Below are positions 11,397 through 36,275 of a stretch of 64,000 nucleotides of DNA, in pieces; the first letter of the stretch is position 1; each line of letters opens with the position of its first letter. The stretch is from an uncultured Nitrosospira sp. (GTDB lineage Bacteria; Nitrospirota; Nitrospiria; Nitrospirales; Nitrospiraceae). The stretch is from NCBI GenBank assembly GCA_900696515.1, contig CAADGK010000039.1, forward strand, positions 1-64,000. Direction: 5' to 3'. Position numbers and translations under genes: made by a program. The notes beneath the pieces are model-generated. The model saw nothing but the letters and a program-made list of their open reading frames with translations. It was not told where the DNA came from and made no database searches.

Positions 11397-12029
11397 ATGC
11401 AGAAAGATCGATTGGCGACGCTCACGATGGACATTGTTGTCAACCATCCAACTAAGCGCACGGCCCTCGACGCAGCCTATAGTCGGCTCAGTCCATGGGC
11501 ACAGTCCGAGTGGGACAGCGCAAGTGATGGCGTGTCCATCACCGAACGAGCCGAGCGCCTTGGTCACTCAATCCGGGAACAGCGTCGCTGCGATGAGAGT
11601 CTGATTGAGCACATCTTCGCTGCCCTTAATGGACGAAGCTTCGTGGTCCTCGATGCCACCTATTGCTTCATGACGCAACGAATGCTGGACCGGAAGACAG
11701 GACGCCGCATTCCCCCTGACGCAGTGCGACGCTTTGCCGCGCAGCCCATTGGGAGTCTGCTCCTCAGCGCCCGTGCGCATAAGGATCTGAAACAGCGTGG
11801 AGTTCACACGATCGGCGATCTCCTCCCCCATGCCTATGAATGGTTATCGCCGAAGCGCCTAGCGCCAGGCAAACCGGTGATGAATGTGCGGCTCTCGGTC
11901 CGACGTTGTCTACGGATTCTGGGTGTCGAGATTGTCTTTCCTGAGATCAGACAGCGGGCAATCTATTGCCCGTGTTGTGCGCACACCGAGACGGATGTCA
12001 TGAAGATCGTCGCGTTGGCTGGCGTGTGA
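11397..12029 (+). CDS. Unknown protein with RNA polymerase alpha-CTD-like helical region
   Basis: A 210-residue protein without an assigned family. Residues about 118-178 (LLLSARAHKDLKQRGVHTIG, then APGKPVMNVRLSVRRCLRILG) resemble the helix-hairpin-helix fold of the RNA polymerase alpha C-terminal domain, including the L(S/N)...L...GI.TIGDL pattern. The N-terminal half has an HTH-like helical region with SPWAQSEWDSASDG and ITERAERLGHSI. A CPCC motif follows at about 191-194. Inference: a DNA-binding or transcription-related regulator of the element. The abrupt C terminus could mean truncation. Confidence 0.5.
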   Translation: MQKDRLATLTMDIVVNHPTKRTALDAAYSRLSPWAQSEWDSASDGVSITERAERLGHSIREQRRCDESLIEHIFAALNGRSFVVLDATYCFMTQRMLDRKTGRRIPPDAVRRFAAQPIGSLLLSARAHKDLKQRGVHTIGDLLPHAYEWLSPKRLAPGKPVMNVRLSVRRCLRILGVEIVFPEIRQRAIYCPCCAHTETDVMKIVALAGV

Positions 12030-12502: not shown

Positions 12503-13531
12503 TTATTGCACTGGGGGAGCAGAAAGGAACGATTTCTGAAGCCCTCTCAGAACTTTCAAATCATCGCTGTCAGATTGCAATTTGGTCTTTTCCACCGCCT
12601 GAATTTTGTGGTTCAACGCTTCTTTGATTGTGACCCACTGTGCAGCATCAAGCTTGCCATCTGCTTGGGTGCTAATGGCGAATCCCTTTAAAGTGCTAGC
12701 ATATACTTCCGTTGGCAATTGAGGGTCAGCAATCACGGAAAAAGCATAAGAACTAAATTTCGGGTCGTAACTACTCAAGACATTTGCAGCAGCTGAACGG
12801 AGCTTAGGCTCCGCGGAAGAGTTCAGGAAAATCTTGTTTCTTATCATGGAGCGCTCGGAAGGCATGGAACCCAAAACACTGATCGCGGCAGTCTTACCCT
12901 CAAGCGAGCCACTGTTCAAGAAATCCATGACACAGGCTTTTCCAAAATTGCTTGCTGCCTGGGCACAAATTCGTACAGCCTCTGGCTGAGAAATCTCTGA
13001 TCCGATTGCAGCCTTGCGCAACGAATCAATTGCATCTTGGTCAGATATTCTTACTAATGATTTCAATGCCGGCAACCGGACTTGGCTTCTTGCATCAACG
13101 GAAGCAGCTTGGAGGGCGGCTATGGCTGCCTTGAATCGTTTCCTACTATAAGTAAGTGAACTCGAATTTCCGATCTCAGTTGTTGACATGTGTTGGGCTG
13201 AAGTTAATACAATCTCATTAGACAGAACAGCTACTGCCTCTTGTGCTATCTCTAGGGAGTCATCATGAACAAGGTCGCCTGCAACCCTGAGAGCTGATTC
13301 ATCTGATATCATTGTTAATTCAAGAAATGCTTTTTTCCGTTCCTGGACTTCCGCATCCTTGCTTGCAATCGTCGCTTCAAGTTGACTAATCTTCTCCCTC
13401 TGTCCCTCAAGGTAGGATTGGACTCGAGAGTCAGGGTTTTGAAGCTGAACTCCATCCTGCACAGCAATTGAGAGTCCAAATGGCAATAACCAACCAAACA
13501 CGGTGAAAGCAAAACTTGCAGGACGAATCAT
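12503..13531 (-). CDS. Secreted HEAT-like repeat protein, last gene of the cytochrome/tyrosinase operon
   Basis: A 342-residue protein. The N terminus is a signal peptide or membrane anchor (SFAFTVFGWLLPFGLSIAV), followed by a coiled coil (about 38-70). The rest consists of repeated helical pairs with Ala/Leu/Ser, such as ARSQVRLPALKSLVRIS, AVRICAQAASNFGKACVM and KLRSAAANVLSSY, typical of HEAT/Armadillo-like solenoids. It starts seven bases after the tyrosinase stop. Inference: a periplasmic scaffold for the redox proteins encoded upstream. No catalytic motif is visible. Confidence 0.6.
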   Translation of the reverse strand: MIRPASFAFTVFGWLLPFGLSIAVQDGVQLQNPDSRVQSYLEGQREKISQLEATIASKDAEVQERKKAFLELTMISDESALRVAGDLVHDDSLEIAQEAVAVLSNEIVLTSAQHMSTTEIGNSSSLTYSRKRFKAAIAALQAASVDARSQVRLPALKSLVRISDQDAIDSLRKAAIGSEISQPEAVRICAQAASNFGKACVMDFLNSGSLEGKTAAISVLGSMPSERSMIRNKIFLNSSAEPKLRSAAANVLSSYDPKFSSYAFSVIADPQLPTEVYASTLKGFAISTQADGKLDAAQWVTIKEALNHKIQAVEKTKLQSDSDDLKVLRGLQKSFLSAPPVQ

Positions 13532-13538
13532 ACAGATA

Positions 13539-14930
13539 TCACTCTAAGGTGTGCTTTCCAAAGTAATCAATGTCATCGTAGCAATATCCAAGAAAGAAAC
13601 CCTTTCCATGTGTGTCTAGGTAGTCAATCAAGCCACCCGTTGTTACTTTATGACTTTGAGGAGAAGGTTTGCCATGGGGGGAGAGAGGGCGAACCAGGTC
13701 GGGCCAGGGAGGGGATGAAGACCCCTGAAGCCATGGCCAAGTCTCATCCCTTTCGTACACGCTGGGAGGGTATTGCCCTGCATCGTGAGACACGCCCGGA
13801 TACCTACCTTGCGCTGAGTAGGCCAATTCATTCTGTGAACTGAACCTATCATTCGCTGCTTGCCAGTGTGCCCAAACTCGGTCAACGTTAGCATGGATTA
13901 GAAAAAAAATAGGGTCTGCTGGTGCCGCTGGACCTCCGAGCCATCCCCCTAACTTATTGTGCACGGCGGCATGAAAACTTCTCTCAATTTGGGAACGCAT
14001 AATCACATATGCATTATTGAGTAGAGAGGGGATGGAGGGGTTCAAAAGACCATTCTGGGGGTCATCGCTTGGGTCACGGATCAGCCCACCTAGTCGCGGG
14101 TCTATCCATCTTCCTAGCCCTTCCCCCGGATAGAAACCTTCGCCTGGTTCTGTGATACCCATAAAATCTCTTGTGAAGATTCTCTTGCTGGGTAGATCAT
14201 ACCTCCAATAAGGAATTGTAACTCTCGGGTCTATGGCTTGCAACCTACGTTCTAGATCAAGCAGGAATGCCCGATGCCAAGGCAGAAAGAGTGGTGACCC
14301 ATGAATTGGCAGCCCATCCGCTGCTTCGTGTAATTGCACAAGAGGGGTGTACTGTGAATTGACCGATTCATTCGCAACATCGTGAAGTCTGACAAGCGCA
14401 TCTAAAAACAGGCTGGACTCAAATGAAGTTAGATTCTCGGCATTCTTGCGAACACGAACCATTACGGGGAGACTGCCAACAACTCTTCCATCTTCAAGCT
14501 GTGCGACAATCGTTGTGTCCTTGGTGCCTTCCGAAGGTCTACGTCCTGCAACCCAAAAATAAACCCAACCATCAATGCTTTCTGGCACCTTTACTTGGAT
14601 TGCCGATTTGGGAGTGAACGTGGTTCGATGTGGCCGTAAGCCACTATCGGTTTGAAATTGGATTGCGCCTCCGTGATCTGTAGTTTGACTCGAGATATTG
14701 AGCACGCTCCCTTTACTGAGGGTGGGAGGTCTTTCGTCTACCACAATCCGAGCGCGAAACTTTGTTGGTGTCCAGCATATGTATTCGCCATGCGCGGCCA
14801 TCTCATCATAACTTTCAATAAGAACGGAGTCACTAAATGCACTATCAGAACCCTGAAACGTGAAAAGGACAGATCCAATAATGAAGCAGATAAGTCTGCT
14901 GAGCACATGACTGGCTGGATTGTCGTTCAT
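13539..14930 (-). CDS. Secreted tyrosinase-family type 3 copper protein
   Basis: A 463-residue protein with an N-terminal hydrophobic export signal (about residues 10-26). A beta-rich domain of about 140 residues comes next, then a tyrosinase domain (about 175-365). All six copper ligands are identifiable: CuA His201, His210 and His219 (IHGSPLFLPWHRAFL) and CuB His320, His324 and His346 (RSFHAAVHNKLGG, FFLIHANVDRVWAHWQ). Tyrosinases use O2 to hydroxylate phenols or oxidise catechols, and the class also includes peptide-modifying members. It lies 17 bases after the upstream operon gene. Secretion and coupling to a cytochrome c gene are unusual. The substrate is unknown. Confidence 0.88.
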   Translation of the reverse strand: MNDNPASHVLSRLICFIIGSVLFTFQGSDSAFSDSVLIESYDEMAAHGEYICWTPTKFRARIVVDERPPTLSKGSVLNISSQTTDHGGAIQFQTDSGLRPHRTTFTPKSAIQVKVPESIDGWVYFWVAGRRPSEGTKDTTIVAQLEDGRVVGSLPVMVRVRKNAENLTSFESSLFLDALVRLHDVANESVNSQYTPLVQLHEAADGLPIHGSPLFLPWHRAFLLDLERRLQAIDPRVTIPYWRYDLPSKRIFTRDFMGITEPGEGFYPGEGLGRWIDPRLGGLIRDPSDDPQNGLLNPSIPSLLNNAYVIMRSQIERSFHAAVHNKLGGWLGGPAAPADPIFFLIHANVDRVWAHWQAANDRFSSQNELAYSAQGRYPGVSHDAGQYPPSVYERDETWPWLQGSSSPPWPDLVRPLSPHGKPSPQSHKVTTGGLIDYLDTHGKGFFLGYCYDDIDYFGKHTLE

Positions 14931-14947
14931 GAAAGCCTATGCATTTT

Positions 14948-16150
14948 CTATCGGCCTGGCACAACCGCTCTAGTCACAGCACCTGCATTGCTACCGGCTG
15001 GTTTAAAGTGAGAAATGGTTACATCTCCCTGTACGGGAGGCGCATCGGAAATAAACCAGAAATTATATGTCGAGCCCCATCGAATGGCATTTGCCTTTGA
15101 ATTGTCTTCAAATCTCTCGGTGCTCCACGTAATCAATCCTCCATTAACTTTATGCTCCCATGGTCTATTTGACCATATCTCTCCATGTGCAGGGGCTGAC
15201 CTGAAACCAATACTACTCTCATCGATAACTGGAGCAGGAACCTTAAGAGATTGAATTGCGAGATCACTATTCATGTTGTATACCACATAGTCATAGCGAT
15301 ACTTGCCTCCACCCACTGGGTTTGCTTTAGAACCAATTATGATGTAGGACTTTGCCCTGCCTTCAAGAGTCTCAATTTCTGACAACTGAGCCCCATCTTC
15401 TTTCCATGCAGCAACTGCAGGTTGCCGCCTTACTTCAGCCGCCTCCCTTCTAAGAACCCAAGCTCCTGTTCTAAGAATAGGCTTGACTTCTCTATAAGTT
15501 ACGTTGTTCCGAGCATTGCCAGCCAACGCATCATCAGCAGTAATGTAATGTGCTTCCACAAAGTATCTTGCGTTAGAGGAACGCAAGTCTGCTTCCTCTA
15601 CCAGCATGATTCGTTCAGCTGGTCCACTCTCTGGGTAGCCAGTCAAATCTTGTGCAGTGCTTCCGTTAAACTCGCCTGTGGCTGGATTCTCAATCCGACT
15701 GCGTGGTCCAAGGTGACTTGTGTCTGCATTGAGGTCTTCCCCGTAATAGTCTGAACATCCTGGACGGAGTAGATTTCCCCCCGGGCCATCTTGGCATGGA
15801 CGTGTTACTTCTGGAATACCCTGGCACTCAAATCGATTTGTAGCGTAAAACGCATGCTTAACCCAAGACTGAGCTAGTTGTTCAATACGACCATTCATCA
15901 ATCTATAAAAATTCATGCTGATCGCTGGGTGTTTATTACTTGGAAGGCGGTGCCAATCTAGTGGCGCATCTCCGGCGTTGCAGGAGTTTGTCGAGGCTGT
16001 AAGGCCAATCTTCGTGCCCTTTCTACTATCTTCTCTCCCGTCATCGATAAAACCCACGATCACATCTGGACCTGCGGCTACGCCGATTGAAGTTAGGAGA
16101 CAAGCCTTGACAAACAGTGCAGATAATAGTCCTACCAGCATCTTGTGCAT
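14948..16150 (-). CDS. Secreted protein of unknown function in the tyrosinase operon
   Basis: A 400-residue exported protein with a signal peptide (residues 4-26, GLLSALFVKACLLTSIGVAAG). The early mature part reads DVIVGFIDDGREDSR. Several cysteines fall in the first 140 mature residues (SCNAG, FECQG, RPCQDG, GCSDYYG), which suggests disulfides. The C-terminal third (YDYVVYNMNSDLAIQSLKVP, then AIRWGSTYNFWFISDAPP) looks like a beta-sandwich. Similar C-terminal text is known to me from uncharacterised secreted proteins, but I cannot name a family. It begins 18 bases after the cytochrome gene, so it is cotranscribed with it. Confidence 0.65.
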   Translation of the reverse strand: MHKMLVGLLSALFVKACLLTSIGVAAGPDVIVGFIDDGREDSRKGTKIGLTASTNSCNAGDAPLDWHRLPSNKHPAISMNFYRLMNGRIEQLAQSWVKHAFYATNRFECQGIPEVTRPCQDGPGGNLLRPGCSDYYGEDLNADTSHLGPRSRIENPATGEFNGSTAQDLTGYPESGPAERIMLVEEADLRSSNARYFVEAHYITADDALAGNARNNVTYREVKPILRTGAWVLRREAAEVRRQPAVAAWKEDGAQLSEIETLEGRAKSYIIIGSKANPVGGGKYRYDYVVYNMNSDLAIQSLKVPAPVIDESSIGFRSAPAHGEIWSNRPWEHKVNGGLITWSTERFEDNSKANAIRWGSTYNFWFISDAPPVQGDVTISHFKPAGSNAGAVTRAVVPGR

Positions 16151-16168
16151 GTACCACCTCCATAGTTT

Positions 16169-18235
16169 TCAATGAACGTCCACAAGCAAGACATGATCCA
16201 CGCTGCTGTGCTTGTCCACGCTCTGATCGAATGAGTACCTCTTGGCAACAATTCTAATCAAGTATCTCTTGCCCTGAGATGCAGGAAAGTCAATACGATA
16301 GGAGCGAGGTGACGATGCCGGGGCTGGATCGGTCCATTTTTGATGCCCAGCAAAAGAGATGTCTTTGAGAATTAGCAAACGTCCGTCCGTATATACTCCC
16401 GGGGATATTTCGATAGCAGCGAGCCCTTTCGTTTCTTCAATGGTCGGGTATTCCTCAGGTCTCGGTCGTGCGCCATCAGAAGAAACGTCAGATTCCAAGA
16501 TGGCCATATTAAATCGCACGTCATCTCTCTCAGGAACACCACCCAGAGAATTTAAATATTGCCACTTGACACTAACTTCTTTAGGCATCTCTCCAATAGA
16601 TCCTTCTCTATTGTCAACAACGGCAAAAGTTAGACTTTCTGGTCCGGCAGAATCAGCGAGGCGCGTTTCGTCTGTCTCGCCTGATTCTGGGGCAGGGGCC
16701 CCAGTATAAAGCTTCAGTGATCTAGGATCAGATTCTGCATTGAGAAGAGCATTGCTAAGCTTGGCCCAATCGTCATCGCTCATAATCGGTGGGGGAGGTT
16801 CGCCAGAAATGTCGTTACCAGTTGGCGCTAGACTCATCCATGGATGAATCTTTCCATTTCCACTCCGCAGCGCCCAATCTGTCCTGAAATTATTCTCAAT
16901 CGCCGCATCAGATCCTAATGAGCCAAGCCTGCCTACTGCATCGGAAGCAAATCTTGCCGTGTTCCCATTGGTAAGACCGTGGCATGTGCTGCAATTTCTT
17001 GTTGGATCAATAACTATCCGTAGTGTGTCAATTGTCGTCTTGTGCACCTCAGTATATGCGGAGCCAATTACTCTGTAAGGGGCTTTATGCCCACGTGTCA
17101 GCTCTGGCAATAGGCTACCGAGACTGAAAGCCTCCGCAACTTCTCGTTTACGATACCCTACTCTAGCCTGCTTGATATACGGTGTTATGATACGCGGCTC
17201 TTTGTTGTCATGACATTCGGCACAATTGATCCTAAATGTCGAATCGTAAGTTTTCGATGCGAGTTTTCTCCCAGCTTCATCCTGGTAACCAGCACCTCCG
17301 GGCGGTACGATCGGAGAGTCCCACGTGAATTTCATCCCTTCATAAGTTCCGTCAAAAAAGGCAACCTCGCCAGAGATGCGGTTAAAGCCAATATAGCCAA
17401 CAAGCTCAAAAGAAGGATTTGAATGAGTCCAATACTCATCGACCTCCAATGGAGTAACCCCTTTAGCTTTCCGGGCTAGTGCTATCCACTCAACATTTCC
17501 TTTGACTATTCGAGAAATTCTAGAAGCCGTTCCGCACGGGGTAACACCACCTGCGAGGGAGGGTTTGTCACAACGTTCAATGCGGGTGGTCCATTTTACA
17601 AAATTCCCCTGCATATCACGATGCTCAAATTCCAATGGTCTTCCAGGCTTTGACGTATTCGGCTTCAACTCGACTCGATTTCCTTCCACCTCAACAAACA
17701 GTTCCCCTGTTTCGATGATGGAACCATCCGTTCTAGTGAATCTCCCTAACTTGGTCACGTCGAAAGGAGGAATTGGACCGAAAACCGAGCGAACCTCATC
17801 TGCAAACTTCAAATTGATGTCAGATTCTTTAGCGGCAGGTGCCCAAAAAATATTTCCATTCCATCTCGAAATGTTCTGAGCCATATTTTCAAAATGAGGC
17901 GTCCGTGGATTTCTGCTCAGAATTTGTAGCCGAAATGCTTCCTCGTTGAGATGGCTAATCTCATCCGCTAGCTGCTTTAGTTGACCTTTCTTTTTTTGGA
18001 TTTCCGATTGTCTTTGCAGATACTCTGATACCCCTTGCGCATCTCTTTGGAAACCCTCTGTAACAGGCATAGGCTTCTTACTAGCAAACGCACCTGACAG
18101 GGCATGCTCATGCTTCGTAAGGTGTTTATCGGGGGCAGAACGGTCGGGGTTTATTGGCAAGCCAGTATTGTGAGTGTTTCTTGATGCACCAAGGCTCAGG
18201 ACACAGCACACCACTACCGGTATTAATCGTTTCAT
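16169..18235 (-). CDS. Periplasmic diheme cytochrome c-like protein
   Basis: A 688-residue exported protein, first gene of the four-gene operon. A signal peptide (LIPVVVCCVLSLGAS) precedes a coiled coil (about residues 75-105). Two CXXCH heme-binding motifs are present: CAECH near residue 338 and CSTCH near residue 414. The large region before the hemes holds a beta-rich domain and the C terminus another. Most small cytochromes are far shorter, so the hemes sit inside a larger enzyme or binding protein. Inference: an electron-transfer partner of the neighbouring tyrosinase or of the divergent diiron protein. A different role is possible. Confidence 0.75.
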   Translation of the reverse strand: MKRLIPVVVCCVLSLGASRNTHNTGLPINPDRSAPDKHLTKHEHALSGAFASKKPMPVTEGFQRDAQGVSEYLQRQSEIQKKKGQLKQLADEISHLNEEAFRLQILSRNPRTPHFENMAQNISRWNGNIFWAPAAKESDINLKFADEVRSVFGPIPPFDVTKLGRFTRTDGSIIETGELFVEVEGNRVELKPNTSKPGRPLEFEHRDMQGNFVKWTTRIERCDKPSLAGGVTPCGTASRISRIVKGNVEWIALARKAKGVTPLEVDEYWTHSNPSFELVGYIGFNRISGEVAFFDGTYEGMKFTWDSPIVPPGGAGYQDEAGRKLASKTYDSTFRINCAECHDNKEPRIITPYIKQARVGYRKREVAEAFSLGSLLPELTRGHKAPYRVIGSAYTEVHKTTIDTLRIVIDPTRNCSTCHGLTNGNTARFASDAVGRLGSLGSDAAIENNFRTDWALRSGNGKIHPWMSLAPTGNDISGEPPPPIMSDDDWAKLSNALLNAESDPRSLKLYTGAPAPESGETDETRLADSAGPESLTFAVVDNREGSIGEMPKEVSVKWQYLNSLGGVPERDDVRFNMAILESDVSSDGARPRPEEYPTIEETKGLAAIEISPGVYTDGRLLILKDISFAGHQKWTDPAPASSPRSYRIDFPASQGKRYLIRIVAKRYSFDQSVDKHSSVDHVLLVDVH

Positions 18236-18665
18236 CTAATAAAGCCTCCATTGCAAGATGGCCAGCTTGACAAGCGCCTACTCATGTTTCAAGAAACTAA
18301 GAAACGAATAAAATTTAGTATCGGTTCTTATGTCTGAGGTGGCAAGGTACAAAAACCTCGGGCATTATTCAATATGTACCGAGAAGAAAATGATCTACCC
18401 GGACTAAATGCTTCAGTGAGTACAGCATGCTGACCCATCATTGGACTCTACTCCGTCAATATCTGAAAAATGGCCACGACCTTTGGGCGACATATGTTTG
18501 GATCACATATGGTCATACCGAACTACGTCCTTTTGACAAAGTTCTATCTTTAGGGCAAAAATGCTTACCCTGATATGACATCATGGTGTCCGCAATGTGT
18601 GAAACGGGATCACACATTCCACTTTTTACTATGTTGCCGAGCAATACCCCAAAAAGGAGGGTTTC
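18236..18665 (+). promoter_or_regulatory. Divergent control region of the cytochrome and peptide/diiron units
   Basis: This 430-base A+T-rich region separates two divergent transcription units, so it must hold both promoters. Two CATATG palindromes lie at 18491-18496 and 18506-18511, 15 bases apart. A TTGACA hexamer is at 18533-18538 without a convincing -10 box. A long inverted repeat at 18594-18618 is listed separately. I see no other gene in it. Confidence 0.5.
18594..18618 (+). promoter_or_regulatory. Perfect inverted repeat, candidate operator
   Basis: AATGTGTGA (18594-18602) and TCACACATT (18610-18618) form a perfect 9-base inverted repeat separated by seven bases. It lies 47 bases before the start of the 66-residue gene, a typical place for a dimeric repressor or activator site, though an mRNA hairpin is also possible. 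TGTGA/TCACA half-sites resemble those of the CRP/FNR superfamily, but the seven-base spacing differs slightly from the usual six. Confidence 0.5.
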
Positions 18666-18866
18666 ATGAAGGAATCGAAGTGCGTAAAGACAGAAGTTAT
18701 TTTCACCCACAAGGATAGTGGAGGCCAAGAGGTTCGTCTGACCGGTATATCCCCTGACTTCTTGACTCGCCCAGAACAGATTAGAAAGGTGATGGAGTTA
18801 CTGAACCTCCCTCAGGGGACAGTCGCGAGATTTTTACACACAACCGAGGATGTCATAGTTCGTTAA
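18666..18866 (+). CDS. 66-residue peptide upstream of a heme-oxygenase-like diiron protein
   Basis: A small protein with an excellent ribosome-binding site (AAGGAGG six to seven bases before ATG 18666), which supports that it is real. It is charged and has a predicted C-terminal helical half (PEQIRKVMELLNLPQGTVARFL). It holds a single Cys at residue 6 and has no signal peptide. The gene sits 11 bases before the 530-residue gene, so the two are almost certainly cotranscribed. Possible roles are substrate or leader peptide for the enzyme, a small subunit, or a regulator. I recognise no family. Confidence 0.65.
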   Translation: MKESKCVKTEVIFTHKDSGGQEVRLTGISPDFLTRPEQIRKVMELLNLPQGTVARFLHTTEDVIVR

Positions 18867-18877
18867 GGAATGTCTCG

Positions 18878-20470
18878 ATGCTCCCCATCAATGGGTATCT
18901 ACGCGACTCCGTTTCAGTGGAGTGGGTTCCATCTGGCGTGGAATTGAGATTTTCGGTGTGGAGCATCGAACTTCCATCAAGTGTTCTTGAAGACAATCCA
19001 AACCTTGTAAGATTTTTCCAAAGACAACTTTCATCATCTGACTTGGTAGGCCTACCGGAGCAGGCTCAGAACTTGATTGCCCTTTTGGGATACCAAGGAT
19101 GCCTTATCCCTAAAATTACGAAATCACAGTATGAACTACGTGAAGTCAAGCTCCAGAATGTGTCTTTTTGCAATGAAATGTATGGGATCTATTACGCGCA
19201 TCCATTATGGAAAGTAATGAGAGGAGACAGCATTCCCAGAACAATAATCACGCAGTGGATATCTCGGACGCATTTTTTATCGAGATTCGCAGGGGTGACC
19301 GCATCTGCCGCTAGTGCCAATAGCAGTTTGGTCAAAGTAAAGGCGGCATTTCTGAAGAGTTCGATAGAAGAATACTCACATTTCCAAGACTATTATGCCC
19401 TGCCGAGAACACTCTTTCCTCTAACCAACGGATTCACTGCTGGAGTTGCCCCGTTGGCTAGCTTTGTTGCTTTTGACTACCAGATGCTTCGAATCGCAAA
19501 GAAGGATTGGCTAGCACACACATGTGTCGCCCTGTTTCAGGAGCGAACTGCCAGTTTCTCGGAGAGTGCTAATAAACTGTATTCTCGGGTGGAGAGCCAA
19601 CTTGGAATGCCGGGGCTCTTAGATGGTTGGCGTACTCACATCTCTTTTGATGAAAGTAATTCACACGAACGAGATCTTGAAGTTCTATTTGACCAGGATC
19701 TTTCTCTCTCACTTGAACAAATCCAGGAGTCTTTCAATGAGGCTGCGCTGACGATTCACTTGTTGATGGACGGTCTTGACGATGTGCTGAAACTTGGGAA
19801 GCAGGGGATAGATCCGAGAGCGAATGCCTTTTCCTTGACGCTTGAGAGACCCAATATGCAAGGAATTGAGAGCCTGTCAGCGGTTTCTCGCCATCAACTC
19901 AAGTCGCGAACTAGCAGCGAAGTTTCAGCTGAGTTGTCTGAATTGATTGCAAGCACTCCGCCGGGATGTGAATTCCTTATGAATGCCTCGGGCTTCTTGC
20001 TTTCTCAGTTCGCGAAATCTTTCGTAGGCCTCGCCCTTGAATGCCTCGCGAACTGTGATACACGAGTAGAGATCACTTGTATTGGCAAAGTGCTTCATGC
20101 CGCTTCAGTGTTTGAAGTACAGTTATCTGGAGACAAGAGACGTAAAAACATTGGGGGCCGAGTTATCCAAAATCATCTATTTCGTCATGCCAAATCGCCA
20201 AAAAGGTTTGCATCATCTGCATTGCTCTATATTCGTCTCATTCAGGTAGGCTTTCGACTCCTAGGACACCCTGTTCCACTTGCAGGGTTTCCCCCTCTCC
20301 TCGAAGCTCTCGAGTCAGCCGTAAGAGATCTCGAAGCTCAAGAGGCCATTGTTGAGAAGGTCAATGATGCCATTGGCACTATTGAATTAATGGAATACGC
20401 ATTTCAAAAGAGTAAGACCGAATGGCCCTGTTTTCGAATCGCGGTCGGTCAAAACGCGCTAATCGACTGA
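18878..20470 (+). CDS. Heme-oxygenase-like (TenA/PqqC-fold) putative diiron oxidase with extra domains
   Basis: A 530-residue cytosolic protein with three regions. Residues 1-95 look like a winged-helix or RRE-like domain (LIALLGYQGCLI). Residues about 100-275 fit the heme-oxygenase-like fold of TenA, PqqC and the HDO diiron oxidases: HPLWKVMRGDSIPRTIITQW, then EEYSH (Glu165, His168), FQERT (Glu222) and HISFD (His254, Asp258), plus His263. These residues match the ligand pattern of HDO enzymes such as UndA. Residues 280-530 match nothing I know. Inference: it oxidises a small molecule or the neighbouring peptide. Start ATG 18878 has GGAATG-like spacing only. Confidence 0.6.
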   Translation: MLPINGYLRDSVSVEWVPSGVELRFSVWSIELPSSVLEDNPNLVRFFQRQLSSSDLVGLPEQAQNLIALLGYQGCLIPKITKSQYELREVKLQNVSFCNEMYGIYYAHPLWKVMRGDSIPRTIITQWISRTHFLSRFAGVTASAASANSSLVKVKAAFLKSSIEEYSHFQDYYALPRTLFPLTNGFTAGVAPLASFVAFDYQMLRIAKKDWLAHTCVALFQERTASFSESANKLYSRVESQLGMPGLLDGWRTHISFDESNSHERDLEVLFDQDLSLSLEQIQESFNEAALTIHLLMDGLDDVLKLGKQGIDPRANAFSLTLERPNMQGIESLSAVSRHQLKSRTSSEVSAELSELIASTPPGCEFLMNASGFLLSQFAKSFVGLALECLANCDTRVEITCIGKVLHAASVFEVQLSGDKRRKNIGGRVIQNHLFRHAKSPKRFASSALLYIRLIQVGFRLLGHPVPLAGFPPLLEALESAVRDLEAQEAIVEKVNDAIGTIELMEYAFQKSKTEWPCFRIAVGQNALID

Positions 20471-21787: not shown

Positions 21788-22690
21788 CTATTGCTGAACG
21801 ACGACCATTCGGATTTGCTTGATATATGCTTTGCCGAGATGATTCTCGATGACCTTGAATGCTGACGTGCCCGATAAAGTGTGCATCATCGAGTGATGGA
21901 CTGACAAGACCGCGTCTTGCAGTTTTGGGTCAGTCTCTAACTGCTCAACAACCAACCCCATTTCACGACACTTTTCTGCATTCAAATGGCGAGCGTGGGA
22001 TAGCGTTAGGGCATGATCCCCAAGCTCCTGCCAGATAACAGTAATCTTTTTCTCCGCATTAGGATCCCCCTGTAGCATCCCGGTACGCAGCCAACCCTTC
22101 ACTATTTGTTCCGACCATTGAATGGCCTTCAAGCATTCCCCGATGAGCGTCGGCCGGTAATTTGCGATAATTGGCTGCCACACCGCAGCCTTGGTTGGGT
22201 CATTCTTGACTTCATTGTGAGCCTGCATGAACTCTTCGAGAATGCCGTGAGCAGGAAGCCCGCCGAATTGAGGGTCGATTGGGCCAAGATTTGATTGCTT
22301 CCCCATCAGAATGGACTTGCAAGCGCATGAAATCATCGTCCCTCCTGACATCGCCAACTGGGGAACAATGGCTCGAATATCCGTTCCAAACATCTGTCGG
22401 AGGTAGTCAACGATAGACTCGACAGCCGCAACATCGCCGCCGGGCGTGTGGAGAATGAGGTCGAGCCCTTTGGAGCGGTCAAGGCGGTGGACGGTAGACA
22501 TCAGCCCGTTCTTGTCCTCGTCGTTGATCGCTCCTTCTTTGACCTCCGGCTTTTGCAGCCATCCACTGTAGTAGGCAATCACATTACGTTTCGTGAGATT
22601 AAACAATCGCTTCAAGTACTTGCGTCTGATAGTGTCATGGCCACTTCCTTCCGCCCGGATCTCGTCAAGAAGCTCGTTCCAGTTTGGCAT
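21788..22690 (-). CDS. Clp-fold serine protease (SDH/SppA-like) at the end of the BREX operon
   Basis: A 300-residue soluble protein of the ClpP/crotonase fold. LDLILHTPGGDVAAVESIV, then AMSGGTMISCACKSILMG and SNLGPIDPQFGG, are the blocks of the SDH/SppA-like serine peptidases; Ser115 is the candidate nucleophile and Asp139 and His81 may contribute. Unlike bacterial SppA it has no N-terminal membrane anchor. It starts one base after the 86-residue gene (TAG-G-ATG), which ties it to the BREX operon. Inference: an accessory effector or regulator of the defence system that cleaves an unknown protein. Confidence 0.75.
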   Translation of the reverse strand: MPNWNELLDEIRAEGSGHDTIRRKYLKRLFNLTKRNVIAYYSGWLQKPEVKEGAINDEDKNGLMSTVHRLDRSKGLDLILHTPGGDVAAVESIVDYLRQMFGTDIRAIVPQLAMSGGTMISCACKSILMGKQSNLGPIDPQFGGLPAHGILEEFMQAHNEVKNDPTKAAVWQPIIANYRPTLIGECLKAIQWSEQIVKGWLRTGMLQGDPNAEKKITVIWQELGDHALTLSHARHLNAEKCREMGLVVEQLETDPKLQDAVLSVHHSMMHTLSGTSAFKVIENHLGKAYIKQIRMVVVQQ

Positions 22691-22691
22691 C

Positions 22692-22952
22692 CTACGACTC
22701 CTTGTGGTCTTCGTTGCGAGTTACGCTATCTGCGGAAGTCCAAAGCAGCTGTTCGGCGTGAAAACCAGATGCCAGCACTCGAAGATTGCTAAATGCAGCA
22801 CGCTTACCCTCGTCCGATAGGCCCAGCATCTCGAACGTGTCCTGAATATCTGTATTAGTCAGGGTGTACTTACTCACGCCTTTCACTTGGGCCTGCGAAT
22901 TATGGTCACTTGTTCCACCATCCTGTTGTTGCTCTTGCAAACAGTTTGACAT
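22692..22952 (-). CDS. 86-residue hypothetical protein of the BREX operon
   Basis: A small, acidic protein with a Gln-rich N terminus (CLQEQQQDGG) and a helical C-terminal half (LTNTDIQDTFEMLGLSDEGK, then AAFSNLRVLASGFHAEQLLW). It lies 32 bases after brxL and one base before the Clp-fold protease, so translation of the latter is probably coupled to it. It could be a partner, adaptor or inhibitor of the protease. I recognise no family. Confidence 0.55.
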   Translation of the reverse strand: MSNCLQEQQQDGGTSDHNSQAQVKGVSKYTLTNTDIQDTFEMLGLSDEGKRAAFSNLRVLASGFHAEQLLWTSADSVTRNEDHKES

Positions 22953-22984
22953 AGCATTTCCCTTCTACACGGCGTAGTGCGCTA

Positions 22985-25012
22985 TCAGTTCATCCCCAAC
23001 GCCTTCATCGCTGCGGTCATCGGATCGGAGAAGAACACGGGGTCAACCCGCTCCACGATATCGCCGGAAACGTCTAAAAAGTTCCGCTTGTTTTCCAGCG
23101 GGATGAGTGCTTTGCGTGCGCCGTTGTCCATTGCCACTTGCAGCGGCTCGGCAAGGGACCGCATCGGCTTGATATTCCCCTGAATGCTCAGGTCGCCGAG
23201 TATGACAAGGCCGGCCTGGACAGGCATTCGCTTCAGCGCTGAGTAGATGGCTACGACTAAGGCGATCCCCGCCTCGCACGAAACCTGATTGCTCAAGAGA
23301 TCAATGGCCTCAACATGAAAGTCCGTCGTGTCAACCTGCTGACCGATCCCCATTTTCACCTTCTGGCCCATTAAATACGCGAAGGCACGGGTGATCGACT
23401 CCCGCATCGGCCCCTCGATTCCCCCGGCGACTTTCAGTTTGCCAGTTCCGGGCGAGCAACCAACTTCCAGCCTGTACAGCCCGACCTTCGCGTGATCGTC
23501 TAGCGACGCCGTGTACAGCGATCCTGGTGCAAGTGGGTCGAGAGAAATCATGTCTCGTCCGCCCTGTTCGGGAACGCCGATGAATCGCTCCTCCCGGGTT
23601 TCGTTGTCGATCAGGGAAAAGGATGTTTGATGGAACTCAAAGGAACCCATTTTCTTCAGCTGTTCCTTCACCCGACGACGACCTTCAAGGGCTAACTCGA
23701 TCAATTCGGCGACCTCATTCTTGGAAAGTTCCCCATTCGGGTAGATCAACTTGATCAACCCCGACACAGTTTTCCGCACCGCTTTGACATCACGGGACTT
23801 GAGATGCGACCCAAGCGAGAAATGGCGGTCCAGAACTTCGGCGAATGTGTGCTTCCGTAGTTCTCGAAGAGCCTCGGCCAGATAGTCGACCACAAAGCCG
23901 TAGTGGTTGGTGAAGAAATCCACCTTCATCTTCGGCATCTCCCAGCCTGGGATGTAGAAGTGTATCCGGTCGAGAAAGGCCATGTCCTCACGGATCACAT
24001 CGGGCATCGGCATGAACAAGTGCGACGAACGCACCATGACCTCGACGGGTTGGTTGGTGTTGCCGAACATGGCGATGGAGGCCATTCCCGATAGCGAGTC
24101 CTTCCCACGAGCAAAGGTGCCTGATTCGCAGTAGGTCTTGAGTGTCGTCACGACTTCCTTCGGCATCTTCTGAAGGTCCGCAACTTCATCGAAGCCGATG
24201 GCATCCCAGATACCGACCAGTCCCATCTTGCCGCTGGCCATATTGAAGAACAAATTGGCGACGGTCGTTGGGCCAGTGAGCAGAATCGTGTACGGCGACA
24301 ACTCCTGATAGCCATAGCTTTTCCCCGTCTCACGCGGCCCAAGTTCCACCAGATTGTAGTTGTTCTCGGCCAGCGGTATCAGCCGCACTAAGTAATGCAA
24401 TTTCTGACGGCGGCTAAAATGCGAAGGTTCAAGGCCGGTGGTACGCAGGAGAAGGTCGATCCATTCATCGGTTGTGAATTGGTTTCGGTGCGTCCGGTAC
24501 TCATCAAGATCGAACTTGGCCAGTTGAATTGGCTTTAGAGCTTCTATCCAGAAGGGGCTTCGCTTTCCGGTGGCTTCTTCGTCGTACTCGTGTTTGATGT
24601 CCACCTGTGCCCAGATGCCACCCATCAGTAAACGATCGAATTGTCGCAGGTAATGCTCCGGGACGTGGACGAACTTGTGGCCGAAGTTCTTGAGTTCGGC
24701 CCAATGCTTGTCGTCATCAGAAACATACCGCACCTGCACCTTGTCGATGAGGGTGTGTTTCCCCTTGTCCTTCGCCATAGACTGGGCCTTGTTTGCCTCA
24801 TCGGGCCGGACAAAGTTCGAGGACAATGTGTTGTTCACCACTTTCAATCCGGCGTCGATGGCCACGGGATCATCGGTGGCGCAATACTTACCCAGCAGGT
24901 ATTCAAGGACGAAGACAGGGACGTTCGCCCCCACCTTGACCTTGCGGACCAAATCCTTGCGGACTACTTTTCCCGCAAACACCGCTGCCGCTTTGCGATC
25001 TAGTTCAGGCAT
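22985..25012 (-). CDS. brxL: BREX protein BrxL (AAA+ with Lon-like C-terminal domain)
   Basis: A 675-residue protein, the last core gene of type 1 BREX. The ATPase region has a P-loop-like GPRETGKS and Walker B-like IGFDEVADL. The N-terminal part (RKDLVRKVKVGANVPVFVLE) matches BrxL. The C-terminal domain aligns with the Lon protease domain (SCEAGIALVVAIYSALKR, LGDLSIQGNIKPMRSL), but the Lon catalytic Ser (GPSAG) reads CEAG and the Lys of GGLKEK reads Ala. Structural work describes BrxL as an MCM-like DNA-binding ring, which agrees with a protease-dead domain. It starts nine bases after pglZ. Confidence 0.92.
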   Translation of the reverse strand: MPELDRKAAAVFAGKVVRKDLVRKVKVGANVPVFVLEYLLGKYCATDDPVAIDAGLKVVNNTLSSNFVRPDEANKAQSMAKDKGKHTLIDKVQVRYVSDDDKHWAELKNFGHKFVHVPEHYLRQFDRLLMGGIWAQVDIKHEYDEEATGKRSPFWIEALKPIQLAKFDLDEYRTHRNQFTTDEWIDLLLRTTGLEPSHFSRRQKLHYLVRLIPLAENNYNLVELGPRETGKSYGYQELSPYTILLTGPTTVANLFFNMASGKMGLVGIWDAIGFDEVADLQKMPKEVVTTLKTYCESGTFARGKDSLSGMASIAMFGNTNQPVEVMVRSSHLFMPMPDVIREDMAFLDRIHFYIPGWEMPKMKVDFFTNHYGFVVDYLAEALRELRKHTFAEVLDRHFSLGSHLKSRDVKAVRKTVSGLIKLIYPNGELSKNEVAELIELALEGRRRVKEQLKKMGSFEFHQTSFSLIDNETREERFIGVPEQGGRDMISLDPLAPGSLYTASLDDHAKVGLYRLEVGCSPGTGKLKVAGGIEGPMRESITRAFAYLMGQKVKMGIGQQVDTTDFHVEAIDLLSNQVSCEAGIALVVAIYSALKRMPVQAGLVILGDLSIQGNIKPMRSLAEPLQVAMDNGARKALIPLENKRNFLDVSGDIVERVDPVFFSDPMTAAMKALGMN

Positions 25013-25021
25013 GGCTCATCC

Positions 25022-27613
25022 TCACATCGAAATGGCGACATCGACCGCCAGGGGAGTCGTCAGTTCTGCTCCCGTAATGGCATCAAGCAGGTAGACCCCA
25101 ACCGTCTTCTGGGAAATCTCCTCGGACAGCATCACAGTGACGGTGTTCGGTTCGATTCGCTTGTTATCGCTTTCAGAAATCTTCAGCTTCACTTCCCCGG
25201 TCGCATCCTCAAAGCCATAGGAGGCGCTTACCGGCATCGACACGCACTTCTTGTTCGCCCGCAGTTCAATCCGCACCTTCGGCGGTTCAAATCCGAACAA
25301 GTTCGACTCGCTCTGGGTCCCAGCAATCTGCACGGAAAAGAACCTCGTGGTTAGTTTCGCCGTGCCGGGGGTCAACATCCATTGGATAGAGGTCGTCGGG
25401 GCAGAGATCTTCGCCGTCGACTGCATCACCACCACAGGCACGATCAGTTCTTGAGGAGATAGTCCCCCGTGGAAATAGGCTCGCCCGCCGCCTTTCGATT
25501 TAAAGACGGCAAACGTCCACGGAGTCGCGATGTCGAATTGGCTGTCCACGCCCAGTGATGCCAACGAGGTCCGCAGGTACGACGGCTCCGAGGTTCCGCC
25601 AACGCCTACCCATACCCGGCGATGGAGGTCTTCGACCTTTCCACCGGGGGATTCGATTTTCATGTCTTCCCCGATCTCATCGGCAAACAAGTGCCCGTGA
25701 TCGGCCACCAGCACGATGGTCTTGATACCATGGTCGGACAACACCCGCACTCCCCGCCGTAAATGGCTCAGCACGCCGTCGATCTGCAATCGGGCTTGGG
25801 CCAGGTTGTCGGCCTCGCCCAGTTCATCGATTTCCTGTGAGGTAATCAGGATCAACTGGTTGGCTTGAATACCGTCTTTCACCTTCTTGCCGGGCTTGGG
25901 GAGCAAGTCATCTAGCTTGGCGTCGAAAACCGGCACGCCCGCATGTTCTTTCAGGAAGGCCACTCGGTCCTTGCGATCCTTGATGATCTTCCCAGCGACC
26001 TCCAACGCCAGCTTACCACCGCCGACACCGACCACCTTAGCCGATTCGTAGGCCCTCGGCAGCAGGGCCGCCATGCCGATCTCTGTGATCGTCGGCATCG
26101 TGCCGATGGCGGACTGGACTTCCAGCGTGAAGTCATCGGTGAGCAGCCGGGACAACTCACGAGCCATTTCGTACCGCAGGGCATCTACCCAGACGTAAGC
26201 CACCTTCCCTTGGCCCAAGTGCGGCTTCACCTGCTGCTCGAAGAAATCCCGCTGCCGCAGCAGCCCCTTGATCGGATGCTTGGCCTTGGCGAAATGGGTG
26301 ACGAAGTGCTTGGCCAGTTCGCTTCCTACCTCGGTGTAGCGCTGCTCGGCTTTGGTGATGAGCTTCTCCACCCCCTGATGCCCGTCGCCAGCGGCGAACT
26401 CGAAGTTGTACTTCCGACTCTCCATGTGTCGGTGGTGCGTGTCTAGCAGGCACCACGGCTCGTCGTCATCGGCGTAGGCTTTGACCAGAGCTGGAACCGT
26501 GGTCGGCGCGTTCTTAATTTCCTTGCCCACCCGATCCGCTTCCAGCAAGACCTCGGCGGCGGACAAAATCAGCGCCCATCGGGCCTGAATCTTCGGCTCG
26601 ATATCGGCCCAGAAGCGGGAGAGTCGTCGCCGTGCCAATTCCAGCAGGTCGGCTGTCGCCTTCTTGAGAAGCTCGGCTTCGACATGCTCCAGCAATGTTC
26701 GCTCAACACACAAGAAAGTTTCGTTCTCCTTGAGCGGTTCGACGGGCAAATCAAGCTGACCGAGGGCAAGCTCCTGCTCGGTCGTATTGGCGACGGCAAC
26801 GTAACTGTATCGATGTTCCCGGCTGTTTCTCCACATTCGGGCAAGCCGCATACAGGCATCGACGCCGCCCGTGCTGTGGGCGACGGAAACTGACGACAGC
26901 GACGACGGCCCCTGCTTCTTGAGAGCTACGAACAGATCGGTGGCGAGAACGTGACGCCCCAGCTTTACTCGCCAGTTGGACAACGCTCCGGCGGCGGGCA
27001 GTTCGATGTCGAAGCCCAATTGCAGCAGGTGCCGCAGTTCCTTCCCTGCCTCCTTCTTTTCAATTTCGTCGTCGTAATGGTCATCGTGCAAAAAGGCCAA
27101 GCCAACTTCCTGCGGATTGGCCGTGCCGAAGATCAGCGTCAGCACGCCGGTGGAAATGTCCTTGCCCTTGTCGGCCAGTGAATTGAGGTCCGCCAGCGAC
27201 AACTTGCCAGCTTCCACCTGCCGTTCAATCTCGCCCACCTGATCCTCGCCCAAAATCGGTTTGAGGGCGTTGCGGGCCACGACGGAGAGGCGGGTGTTGC
27301 AGGCCGGGGGTTGTTGCCGGGGCTGCATAACGACCCCGGCAGCGTCGAGTTCGATCAAAGCGCTGTGGGTCTTCTCTCGCTCGATGGGGACGTAAACGAC
27401 CAGCCGGGGCGGTTGCCCGTCGTCCATCAGGTGGTCGATCTCTTTACGCAACTTGAGGAAGCTGCCGTCGAATCGGGCCACAGTGGTCTTGGGGAGCGTG
27501 AGTTCCGCCGCTGCCGAGCCGTAGGCTTGCTCCGGGTCGTACCAGACGACCAGCCCCTTGTCATCGACCTGCTTGGCGATGAGTTGAGCGAGATGTTCGG
27601 TGACGACGGCCAT
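25022..27613 (-). CDS. pglZ: BREX alkaline-phosphatase-like protein PglZ
   Basis: An 863-residue protein with a PglZ domain of the alkaline phosphatase superfamily in its centre: VAYVWVDALRYEMARELSRLL (metal-ligand Asp) and IVLVADHGHLFADE (metal-binding Asp-His). PglZ is essential for BREX defence and forms a complex with PglX and BrxB. ATG 27613 overlaps the pglX stop by one base (TAATG), so I reject the upstream GTG at 27661 within pglX. The N terminus (LIAKQVDDKGLVVWYDPEQ) matches the usual PglZ start. Confidence 0.93.
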   Translation of the reverse strand: MAVVTEHLAQLIAKQVDDKGLVVWYDPEQAYGSAAAELTLPKTTVARFDGSFLKLRKEIDHLMDDGQPPRLVVYVPIEREKTHSALIELDAAGVVMQPRQQPPACNTRLSVVARNALKPILGEDQVGEIERQVEAGKLSLADLNSLADKGKDISTGVLTLIFGTANPQEVGLAFLHDDHYDDEIEKKEAGKELRHLLQLGFDIELPAAGALSNWRVKLGRHVLATDLFVALKKQGPSSLSSVSVAHSTGGVDACMRLARMWRNSREHRYSYVAVANTTEQELALGQLDLPVEPLKENETFLCVERTLLEHVEAELLKKATADLLELARRRLSRFWADIEPKIQARWALILSAAEVLLEADRVGKEIKNAPTTVPALVKAYADDDEPWCLLDTHHRHMESRKYNFEFAAGDGHQGVEKLITKAEQRYTEVGSELAKHFVTHFAKAKHPIKGLLRQRDFFEQQVKPHLGQGKVAYVWVDALRYEMARELSRLLTDDFTLEVQSAIGTMPTITEIGMAALLPRAYESAKVVGVGGGKLALEVAGKIIKDRKDRVAFLKEHAGVPVFDAKLDDLLPKPGKKVKDGIQANQLILITSQEIDELGEADNLAQARLQIDGVLSHLRRGVRVLSDHGIKTIVLVADHGHLFADEIGEDMKIESPGGKVEDLHRRVWVGVGGTSEPSYLRTSLASLGVDSQFDIATPWTFAVFKSKGGGRAYFHGGLSPQELIVPVVVMQSTAKISAPTTSIQWMLTPGTAKLTTRFFSVQIAGTQSESNLFGFEPPKVRIELRANKKCVSMPVSASYGFEDATGEVKLKISESDNKRIEPNTVTVMLSEEISQKTVGVYLLDAITGAELTTPLAVDVAISM

Positions 27614-30600
27614 TACTTCACCAATCCTTTCTGGCGAAGCTGCTTGCCGATCGAGGACCACTCGTATTGGCCTTCCATTAATTCATCCCAGTATTTCTTG
27701 GCTTCATTCCACGGAACCAGTTCCCAGAGCGGGGCGATGTTCAGGACGACACCATCGTTGAGGTCGGGTTCGAGATGCAGGTTCGCCGCCCGCCGCAGCT
27801 TGTCCTCGAAGTCCCGCAGTTCGGAGAGAAACTCTTCCTGCCGTTCCACCTTCTTGGCGAGCCCTTTGGCCTCTTTGCCGCTTTCCCCCGCTGCGGCCTT
27901 CTGGGTGCGAAGCGAATCGAGGCTGCTGGTTTCCAAGCGAATCTTCGGCTCAACGTAATTCATCAGCGCCTTGAAGAGCAGGTCTTTGTCGAGCCGGTGG
28001 TAGTAAAGCCAAATGGCGTAATTCTTCTTCGAGGATTGCAGCAGCCAATAGATCGGAGCCTTGCGCCGGCTCTTCGAGTAGCGGGAGATATGATCGTCCC
28101 AAAAACCGCCCTTGCCCGGCTTGCGGAAGTAGTCACGAAGTTCTTTAACGCCGAGAATCTCGCAGGCTTCCTTTTCCACGAAATCGGCTCGTTCCTTCCA
28201 AATGAACTCAAAGACTTGTCGCACCCTATGGATGATGTCATCGGAGTGTTCTGCATCATCAGGTGTGATCGAGTGCCAAGTGGTGGACCGACAATCTGAA
28301 CCGGGTGGAATTGGCGGAATTGGGGAGTCAGGACCCGGTAGGACCACTCCATCGGTTGACTTAGCTTTCTGCTTCTGCCAACGGCCGACGCATACGCCGA
28401 CGGAATACGACAAAATGCGTGCCCCGACATCTCGCAGCATTCCAGTCGGAAGTAATTGTGAAGTGCGGCGAGCCGAAATGATAGACTTTGGATGCACTTT
28501 GAAGCGACTGGCGAGCAACTCAAGTCGTCGATCTGCGATGTATGTCTTCTTCGTCAACGACCGACTCGCCCCGGACGCCTGTACCTCTTCATCAATGATG
28601 TGCTCAATTGGCTGTTCGTAAATAGCATTAAGATCTGCGATCTCTTCGTGAGTTAGCGCCCTTTGGGGGAACTTATCGGGGTGTTCCCCGCATTCACCGC
28701 AAAGTTCTCGGTAGTCCTTCTCGCTGAGTCCATAATTATGCAGCACTCGATCCTCAGCAGTTCGATGGCATCGAATGACTTCTTCAACTCGTGCTTCCCA
28801 TTCGGCAATTTCCGCTTCAGCAAGTTCCTTCAATGAAGGTAATACACCCGTACAAGCGAAGGGACTGATAAAATATCGGTCTGGCTCTTGCGTCGCACAA
28901 AACCCACGAATCCTATCCCAAATCAACTCAGTCGCTTTGGAAACCAACTCCCTGTCATCATCGCTGGCCTCGACTGTTGGAATTCCAGCAACGATTCGTG
29001 GCCCATAGTGCCTTGCAGCGCTGCCACTATGAACGGCGTCGCCACTGCCAACGCACATTTCAATGAAAAACTGTGCCAGTCGAGTGTTTAGAATGAAGGC
29101 GCATTCGAGAAGGCGGTGCTTAGGCGGGGTAATTGTCACGCCGTTGGGACTAAAGACACAGCCGGGAGGCAATACCCGTGCCGACAGGTTGCTCGTCGTT
29201 CTCTCCGTGTATGTTACTCCCCACTGAAAATACGCCGCAGAATTCGATTGACGGCGAGCACGGTCCTTCATCGACCAATCAACTACCAAGTGATAGTCGC
29301 CGTAGAATGGTGAATACTCACCACCTTTTGCGAACGAAACCCATCTGGGGGAGTCTCCGCTCAATTCCGACTCTGGGATTTCCCATTGAAGTCGCAGAAA
29401 AAAGTCGTCATCGCCGGTCTGAAGTCCTACAAAGGGGAACCCATAAACGGTTCGCACGTTCGTTGGCATTCTGAAGAGTTTACGCCAGCGGGGAGATACC
29501 CAATATGCAGTTCGATTGGCGGGGATGTCGAGAAATGATGCAAGCTCAGCTACGAATGCAACTTGACTCGTGCCTTGGCTGTGGAGCAAATGGCACACTT
29601 CTGCGAGAGATGATCCTTTATCTTCACGGGCCAACAAACTGATAAACAGAGAGCTACCACGGCTGGTTGCTCGTTTCTGTGCTGTATAAGCTGCAGCCTC
29701 GACGAGCGCATCGTCCAGCACGCCGTATCCAAGATCGGCCATGACATTGAGCGAAGCGGACACCCCTAGCAGCTTTTCCCTCCATCCTTCAAGCAATTCC
29801 AAAAAGAATCCGAGCCGAGATGTTAGAGCACCGAGCAATCCATCTTGCTCAAGAAGAATAACGCCTCGATCTACGAAGGCGGAAAACACATCTTGACTGG
29901 CGTTGTCGTAGGCTCTGTACAAATAGCTCCGAGAGGGAACCGAAACCTCGCCAAATGGAGGATTCATCAGAATCACATCATACCGCTTCTGGCAAACGTC
30001 CACGAAGGCGAAGCCCCGCACTGCGTCCTCTGTAAACAGCCGCCGTTGCAGCCGCTTGCCATTGTGGGCTTTCTCCGCATAGGAGCGCAGCGTCTCGACA
30101 ACCCGTGATTCGGCTTCCTCAAAGAATTGGTGGTCCGTAATGTCCGAGAGATCAAAGTGAGATGGCTGTTCGGGCTTCCCGGCGAGGCGATCCATCGCCG
30201 CCTGAGTGAACAAGAGCGGCTGGCCCTCGCGATCCGTGGCTTGGGTCGTCTCACGAATATACTGCTTCTTGGCAGCGGCCACGGCATCCCGGATCTCTTC
30301 CTCGATCTTGAGCAGCGAACCGGCTTCGCCAGCCAGCTTCATCTTGTCGAAGACGACCTCCACCACTTGACCGAGGACTTTCGGCTCAAGCTGGCCGACG
30401 AACTCCTTGAGCATCTGCTCTTCGCCCGGCATCGGCTCGGCACAGACGAAGTTAGAGCGGGTGATCATGGGCCGATCCTTCTTCAGTCCCATCTCCTGAT
30501 ACGCCCGCTGGCAACGCAGCCACAGAGCAAGGGCCGCAATCTGGCTGGCCCGCAGGTCAATGTCGATGCCGTGCAGGTTATGAGCGAGGATCAGCCGGGG

Positions 30601-31767: not shown

Positions 31768-31768
31768 T

Positions 31769-32590: not shown

Positions 32591-32593
32591 GAT

Positions 32594-36259: not shown

Positions 36260-36275
36260 GCGAGCGTCCCTTTCC

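Follow-up and report, generated by a model that had tools for sequence, protein, structure and literature searches.

Within a window of 64,000 nucleotides (nt; positions 1-64000 of contig 39 in a 4.585-Mb, 144-contig genome), six open reading frames (ORFs) at 12503-20470 form two divergent groups, four genes on the minus strand (the left unit) and two on the plus strand (the right unit). We find that the left unit, which encodes a diheme c-type cytochrome (CYT), a protein of a nameless family (UNK400), a tyrosinase (TYR) and a HEAT-repeat protein (HEAT), recurs intact in two further bacterial families and in a modified form in a third genome. These four genes very probably form one functional unit. 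The reading we tentatively favour, at slightly less than an even chance, is that of an operon complete in itself and spread by horizontal transfer, the product of which is an exported type-3 copper oxidase of the tyrosinase family. The original prediction had placed all six ORFs correctly; they and the region between them are as follows (lengths in amino acids, aa).

16169..18235, minus strand: CYT, 688-aa diheme c-type cytochrome, predicted exported
14948..16150, minus strand: UNK400, 400-aa protein of a nameless family, predicted exported
13539..14930, minus strand: TYR, 463-aa type-3 copper protein, predicted exported
12503..13531, minus strand: HEAT, 342-aa HEAT-repeat protein, predicted exported, directly downstream of TYR
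18236..18665: divergent A+T-rich intergenic region between the left and right units
18666..18866, plus strand: 66-aa ORF, good ribosome-binding site AAGGAGGG
18878..20470, plus strand: OX530, orphan 530-aa protein, apparently cytosolic

The left unit in other genomes

The four genes are closely spaced (CYT/UNK400 18 nt, UNK400/TYR 17 nt, TYR/HEAT 7 nt), and the N-termini of all four products are hydrophobic and signal-like when judged by eye, in agreement with the earlier claim of four exported proteins. A scan of genome contigs with the CYT alignment returned 43 loci; the genome sets searched were samples of large collections, so that the recurrence counts given here are lower bounds. All four genes stand in identical order in the isolate Mesorhizobium sp. 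B2-7-2 (L007) and in a Sphingomonas metagenome-assembled genome (MAG; L008), with identities of 58 and 55% for CYT, 63 and 58% for UNK400, 47 and 45% for TYR, and 39 and 34% for HEAT, respectively. A UNK400 profile search of 385 Alphaproteobacteria added one further full-length member, in genome G372, where a 144-aa one-haem cytochrome is followed by UNK400 (47%), TYR (33%) and a HEAT-like protein of 323 aa, all encoded by overlapping or nearly overlapping genes. This last protein is homologous to the other module HEATs (hhalign probability 98.7%), and the cytochrome in first place is class-I-like and unrelated to CYT. Comparison of the four genomes shows that UNK400, TYR and HEAT keep their order and linkage, and that the gene of a secreted c-type cytochrome, drawn from two unrelated families, directly precedes them in every one (4/4). 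The exchange in G372 therefore suggests that the presence of a cytochrome matters more than its family.

UNK400, the best-conserved member of the module, contains five cysteines and matches nothing in Pfam or NCBIfam. Profile searches of the 385 Alphaproteobacteria, 296 genomes of the window's own phylum (none of the others in this sample has UNK400) and 398 phylum-wide genomes confined full-length UNK400 to module loci, in four genomes, and plasmids and viral contigs yielded none. The large share of the window's own genus in the phylum sample would suit a small phylum other than Pseudomonadota; a Nitrospira 16S probe pattern was not matched. The remaining profile matches are distant relatives, present as domains in secreted proteins of 600-800 aa from other Pseudomonadota; UNK400-like genes in G1078 and G851 adjoin five-haem cytochromes, and in G1107 and G1189 the domain occurs with no cytochrome nearby. 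An AlphaFold2 model of UNK400 (mean predicted local distance difference test, pLDDT, 47.6) is confident solely in a C-terminal beta-sandwich at about residues 250-398, and its Foldseek matches were set aside as generic beta-sandwiches in unrelated proteins. As a separate observation, UNK400-like secreted proteins lie downstream of five-haem cytochromes in two genomes (L063 459-6244 and L065 6005-13975), at loci that also hold a small lipoprotein and a secreted protein with an HWHHNYWR motif. We considered the HWHHNYWRF secreted protein of G1078 and G851 as copper amine oxidase-like, which neither Pfam nor the PDB supported, and a general pairing of the UNK400 domain with copper enzymes was dropped after that failure.

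CYT carries two CXXCH motifs (C338-H342 and C415-H419), the Cys and His of which are invariant in 24-28 aligned homologs, so the diheme cytochrome of the original prediction stands; its best cytochrome c family match, PF13442, reaches 21.7 bits and lies under the cutoff of 27. The protein has an N-terminal beta-rich domain and a C-terminal immunoglobulin/fibronectin type III (Ig/fn3)-like domain. The core around the haems is of low confidence in its AlphaFold2 model (mean pLDDT 71.9), with which Foldseek found nothing at E<=0.001, the matches listed being fn3/Ig domains and no specific fold. The cytochromes of the window, L007, L008 and a Fimbriimonadaceae MAG (L009) form one clade (support 100/99). 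The L009 contig begins inside the cytochrome gene, UNK400, TYR and HEAT are all missing downstream of it, and UNK400 was not found anywhere in that genome. The other family members come mainly from rhizobia, in many cases from megaplasmids such as pSymA, and belong to a different, conserved cluster of a peptidase, a SnoaL-like protein, a diheme cytochrome and an adenylate cyclase/AAA protein. This cluster is present in most of the 40-odd genomes (L003-L006, L010-L047 and L049), and metallopeptidase-like, SnoaL-like and cyclase genes occur together in 29 of 47 loci; we know of no description of it. Given this second cluster, CYT would be a reusable exported redox part. CYT is missing from all 58 closer relatives of the window's organism (0/58), and we therefore consider the left unit to have been acquired.

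The tyrosinase clade and its HEAT neighbour

TYR comprises an N-terminal domain, a tyrosinase domain at about residues 155-360 and a conserved C-terminal tail, LGYCYDD. It matches PF00264 at 9.9e-31, or about 1e-30 (108 bits against a cutoff of 22.6), as well as tyrosinases and hemocyanins in the PDB. The six copper ligands claimed for it are all present (H201, H210, H219, H320, H324 and H346); they do not vary among the four exported homologs, and they line up in every sequence compared. Phylogenetic analysis places TYR in a clade of eight (support 100/98) against ten outgroup rows. Within this clade the four exported proteins group at 98/94, and four members that lack a signal and are taken as cytosolic are weakly grouped (80/62).

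What sets the clade apart is the residue preceding H346, the third ligand of the second copper site (CuB). The outgroup has His in this position in 10/10 rows, two of them identical, giving the usual HH motif, whereas all eight clade members have I or L; TYR thus retains the ligand His and lacks the motif. The preceding His is a second-sphere residue, common in tyrosinases, which is no ligand and does not strictly define the family. Its clade-wide loss, read from the alignment, hints at non-standard chemistry. E316 is kept in the four exported TYRs and aligns close to the presumed site of the water-keeper Glu in the Bacillus megaterium enzyme; the four differ in the residue that follows H320 (A, S, N, N).

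A HEAT gene adjoins TYR in all eight clade members, and HEAT itself matches HEAT_2 (PF13646) at 5e-7, in keeping with its earlier identification. In the four signal-less members, an SCO copper-chaperone gene occurs instead of the cytochrome and UNK400. A TYR profile search of 240 Alphaproteobacteria found such an arrangement in G336 (signal-less TYR, HEAT-like protein, then an SCO1/SenC-domain protein), and three plasmids, from Rhizobium gallicum, Paraburkholderia caribensis and Rhizobium sp. CIAT894, bear the annotated trio of a tyrosinase, a HEAT or hypothetical protein and an SCO family protein.

L087 7690-10816: cytosolic TYR-HEAT-SCO trio of G336, SCO1-SenC domain in third place
L099 3501-6839: cytosolic TYR-HEAT-SCO trio, plasmid
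L100 3501-7273: cytosolic TYR-HEAT-SCO trio, plasmid
L101 3501-6689: cytosolic TYR-HEAT-SCO trio, plasmid

Profile-profile comparison links the exported and cytosolic HEAT groups (E 2.5e-8, probability 95%); the exported profile gives far lower scores to 160 shuffled decoys and to an unrelated HEAT protein encoded in the window. The P. caribensis protein gave no score in a single-sequence search, nor did that of G372 in the reverse search, and the homology is therefore argued from profile comparison together with gene position.

The divergent unit and the mobile setting

The original prediction treated both divergent units as one system and proposed co-occurrence in unrelated genomes as its check. 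The left unit does so, in L007, L008 and G372, and can be regarded as one system; it recurs without the right unit, and the divergent pair does not hold up. Neither the 66-aa ORF nor OX530 was found beside the module loci of L007, L008 and G372. OX530 is missing from the genomes of L007, L008, L009 and L046; it has no homologs in the 78 other genomes of the same genus (79 searched), in the 295 other genomes of the 296-genome phylum sample, or in plasmids, viral contigs and the PDB, and matches nothing in Pfam, NCBIfam or PADLOC, its N-terminus included. The two genes, 11 nt apart, are separate cargo outside the conserved module.

OX530 had been described as a heme-oxygenase-like dimetal oxidase (HDO)-fold protein with all metal ligands. 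It has E165-x2-H168, E222, H254-x3-D258 and H263, the last at D-x4-H. Five of six ligands of the three-histidine, three-carboxylate (3H/3C) set are at the usual HDO spacing (E-x2-H, E, H-x3-D), while the sixth lies two residues farther than the x2 of UndA, and no profile matches. The 3H/3C set is that of the heme-oxygenase-like dimetal oxidases (PMC13108848), and the ligand pattern of OX530 is a lead towards this family. The 66-aa ORF resembles HTH_IclR only weakly (E 0.1) and is perhaps a small helix-turn-helix protein. With this match and no family for the OX530 N-terminus, the pair does not look like the precursor and maturase of a ribosomally synthesised and post-translationally modified peptide, and the peptide modification system once envisaged on the 66-aa ORF finds no support. 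The alternative suggestion of a surface antimicrobial system fared no better, as no antimicrobial feature was found, nor did the cluster give any PADLOC match for a defence function.

The proposed shared control region between the units is indeed A+T-rich, but because promoter and terminator matches within 18236..18665 are no more frequent than by chance, a control function is only inferred. A palindrome ahead of the 66-aa ORF, AATGTGTGA-AACGGGA-TCACACATT (18594-18618), might be an operator; hairpins of this kind occur in the region at chance frequency.

Composition separates the region from its surroundings, as had been noted (GC of 46-48%, compared with 57-61% for the flank on the left). Type IV secretion system genes (TrbL, VirB8 and TraG/VirD4-like), along with a TrbM-like gene, lie to its left and a relaxase gene to its right, and the region is therefore well supported as cargo of a conjugative element, much as the earlier placement in an integrative and conjugative element had it. 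No plasmid matched the whole cluster at the DNA level. Between the secretion genes and the module, a 210-aa ORF (11397-12029, plus strand) has an RNA polymerase alpha C-terminal-domain-like match (PF03118, 1.5e-4, just under the cutoff). On the other side, a bacteriophage exclusion (BREX) phage-defence cluster adjoins the module at 21788-37704 on the minus strand.

22985-25012, minus strand: BrxL
25022-27661, minus strand: PglZ
27613-31767, minus strand: PglX-like methylase
31769-32590, minus strand: HEPN protein
32594-36316, minus strand: BrxC-like protein
36856-37704, minus strand: BrxA

Proposed chemistry, alternatives and known operons

Known tyrosinase operons offer a partial precedent. 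Like melC1-melC2 of Streptomyces, the module is an operon that gives a tyrosinase a helper gene of its own and has the enzyme exported; unlike melC1-melC2, its helper is a HEAT protein, no neighbour matches MelC1 in Pfam, a cytochrome and UNK400 are added, and TYR scores 94.8 bits with the MelC2 equivalog model against a cutoff of 450. The ppoB1-ppoB2 operon of Marinomonas mediterranea likewise joins a tyrosinase to a copper-delivery protein (PMC2855505), comparable to the SCO of the cytosolic clusters, but PpoB2 belongs to COG5486 rather than to HEAT or SCO, and neither a cytochrome nor UNK400 is described there. The helper genes of these operons, MelC1 and PpoB2, serve copper transfer (PMC2855505, PMC11608171), and in the module HEAT occupies their place, joined by SCO in the clusters of the cytosolic type. 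HEAT would accordingly be a dedicated partner for copper loading, folding or assembly of TYR, and we consider a role as tyrosinase assembly partner probable. The literature searched contained no paper linking a tyrosinase with a HEAT repeat or a diheme cytochrome. To our knowledge, no operon of cytochrome-UNK400-tyrosinase-HEAT make-up has been described, and this variant of the tyrosinase operons has a modest chance of new copper chemistry.

The linkage of the genes is observed, and the chemical steps that follow are proposed from it. TYR would act outside the cytoplasm in the O2-driven oxidation of a phenolic or catecholic substrate, either a small molecule or a tyrosyl residue; the new oxidative pathway once suggested for the region is in this sense plausible for the left unit. 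An electron partner is not usually counted among the requirements of tyrosinases. CYT would exchange electrons with the TYR chemistry, most likely by passing them to the met (Cu(II)2) centre of the resting enzyme, which, once reduced, could take up O2 and act on monophenols with no need of a catechol primer; alternatively, CYT might take electrons from product quinols. Monophenols are not attacked by the met form of tyrosinase (PMC11608171), and reduction of a secreted bacterial copper oxygenase by a c-type cytochrome is known (PMC8981238); taken together, these suggest that CYT may keep the exported dicopper centre reduced. The precedent is an analogy only: in the Cellvibrio japonicus system of electron delivery to a lytic polysaccharide monooxygenase (LPMO; Cbp2D/CjX183), the c-type cytochrome and the copper oxygenase that it reduces are both secreted (PMC8981238), but LPMOs are mononuclear copper enzymes acting on polysaccharides, whereas TYR has a type-3 dicopper centre and its electron transfer is proposed. 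That CYT feeds electrons to TYR is conceivable, although we lean somewhat against it, and a role of UNK400 in substrate binding or anchoring is a looser suggestion that we rate as rather doubtful. The full combination, a new tyrosinase branch, its CuB second sphere altered, that receives electrons from a co-secreted c-type cytochrome and hydroxylates phenols or tyrosyl residues extracellularly, while HEAT is a copper-loading partner of a new type and UNK400 the substrate or an anchor, would amount to a cytochrome-driven dicopper oxygenase; we regard it as unlikely, at about one chance in four.

Several findings weigh against the exported-oxidase operon and its electron supply. The module is known from four genomes only, and a near relative of CYT (57% identity, in L009) stands without the other module genes. 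About 40 rhizobial CYT homologs belong to a different exported cluster with no TYR, so CYT may be an exported cytochrome of general use. Other secreted proteins contain the UNK400 domain with no tyrosinase involved, the match between exported and cytosolic HEATs is modest and of a kind that repeats can inflate, and catechol oxidation requires no electron donor. TYR could be an ordinary exported phenol or catechol oxidase or a melanin-type enzyme, the quinones of which polymerise or detoxify phenolics while CYT simply hands electrons on to the respiratory chain, whether from quinols or from another donor. This account is possible, if on the unlikely side: it agrees with a tyrosinase domain that has all its ligands, with the fact that tyrosinases require no reductase for catechols (PMC11608171) and with a reported effect of Streptomyces extracellular polyphenol oxidases on phenolic sensitivity (PMC2758597), but it leaves unexplained the strict UNK400-TYR-HEAT unit and the two unrelated cytochromes in first position, and it sits uneasily with the lost second-sphere His.

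The position of UNK400, always directly before TYR, together with its strong conservation, would suit a protein modification, in which TYR oxidises tyrosines of UNK400 (or of the cytochrome) to 3,4-dihydroxyphenylalanine (DOPA) or quinone and so forms cross-linked or redox-active surface material. Tyrosinases are able to cross-link proteins (PMC11608171). UNK400 has no Tyr-rich repeat as judged by eye, however, and UNK400-like domains exist in genomes with no neighbouring tyrosinase, which makes this improbable. We consider it highly improbable that both divergent units serve one pathway, with a cytosolic HDO that produces or alters a peptide or small molecule and an exported unit that oxidises the product. 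The common intergenic region, the common low GC and the HDO-like ligand spacing of OX530 would fit such a pathway, but OX530 is missing from the other module-related genomes, the genus, the phylum sample and plasmids, and the 66-aa ORF is HTH-like rather than precursor-like.

Returning to the exported type-3 copper oxidase operon, we see its significance in the following. A cytochrome c gene that stands before an exported tyrosinase gene, even where the cytochrome family has changed, makes a clear case, open to testing, for type-3 copper chemistry fed with electrons from outside. That TYR is paired with HEAT in both settings suggests an assembly partner of tyrosinases that has so far gone unrecognised, and the subfamily set apart by the lost second-sphere His would be worth assaying. 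In this window the exported module is carried by a conjugative element, whereas plasmids carry its cytosolic version.

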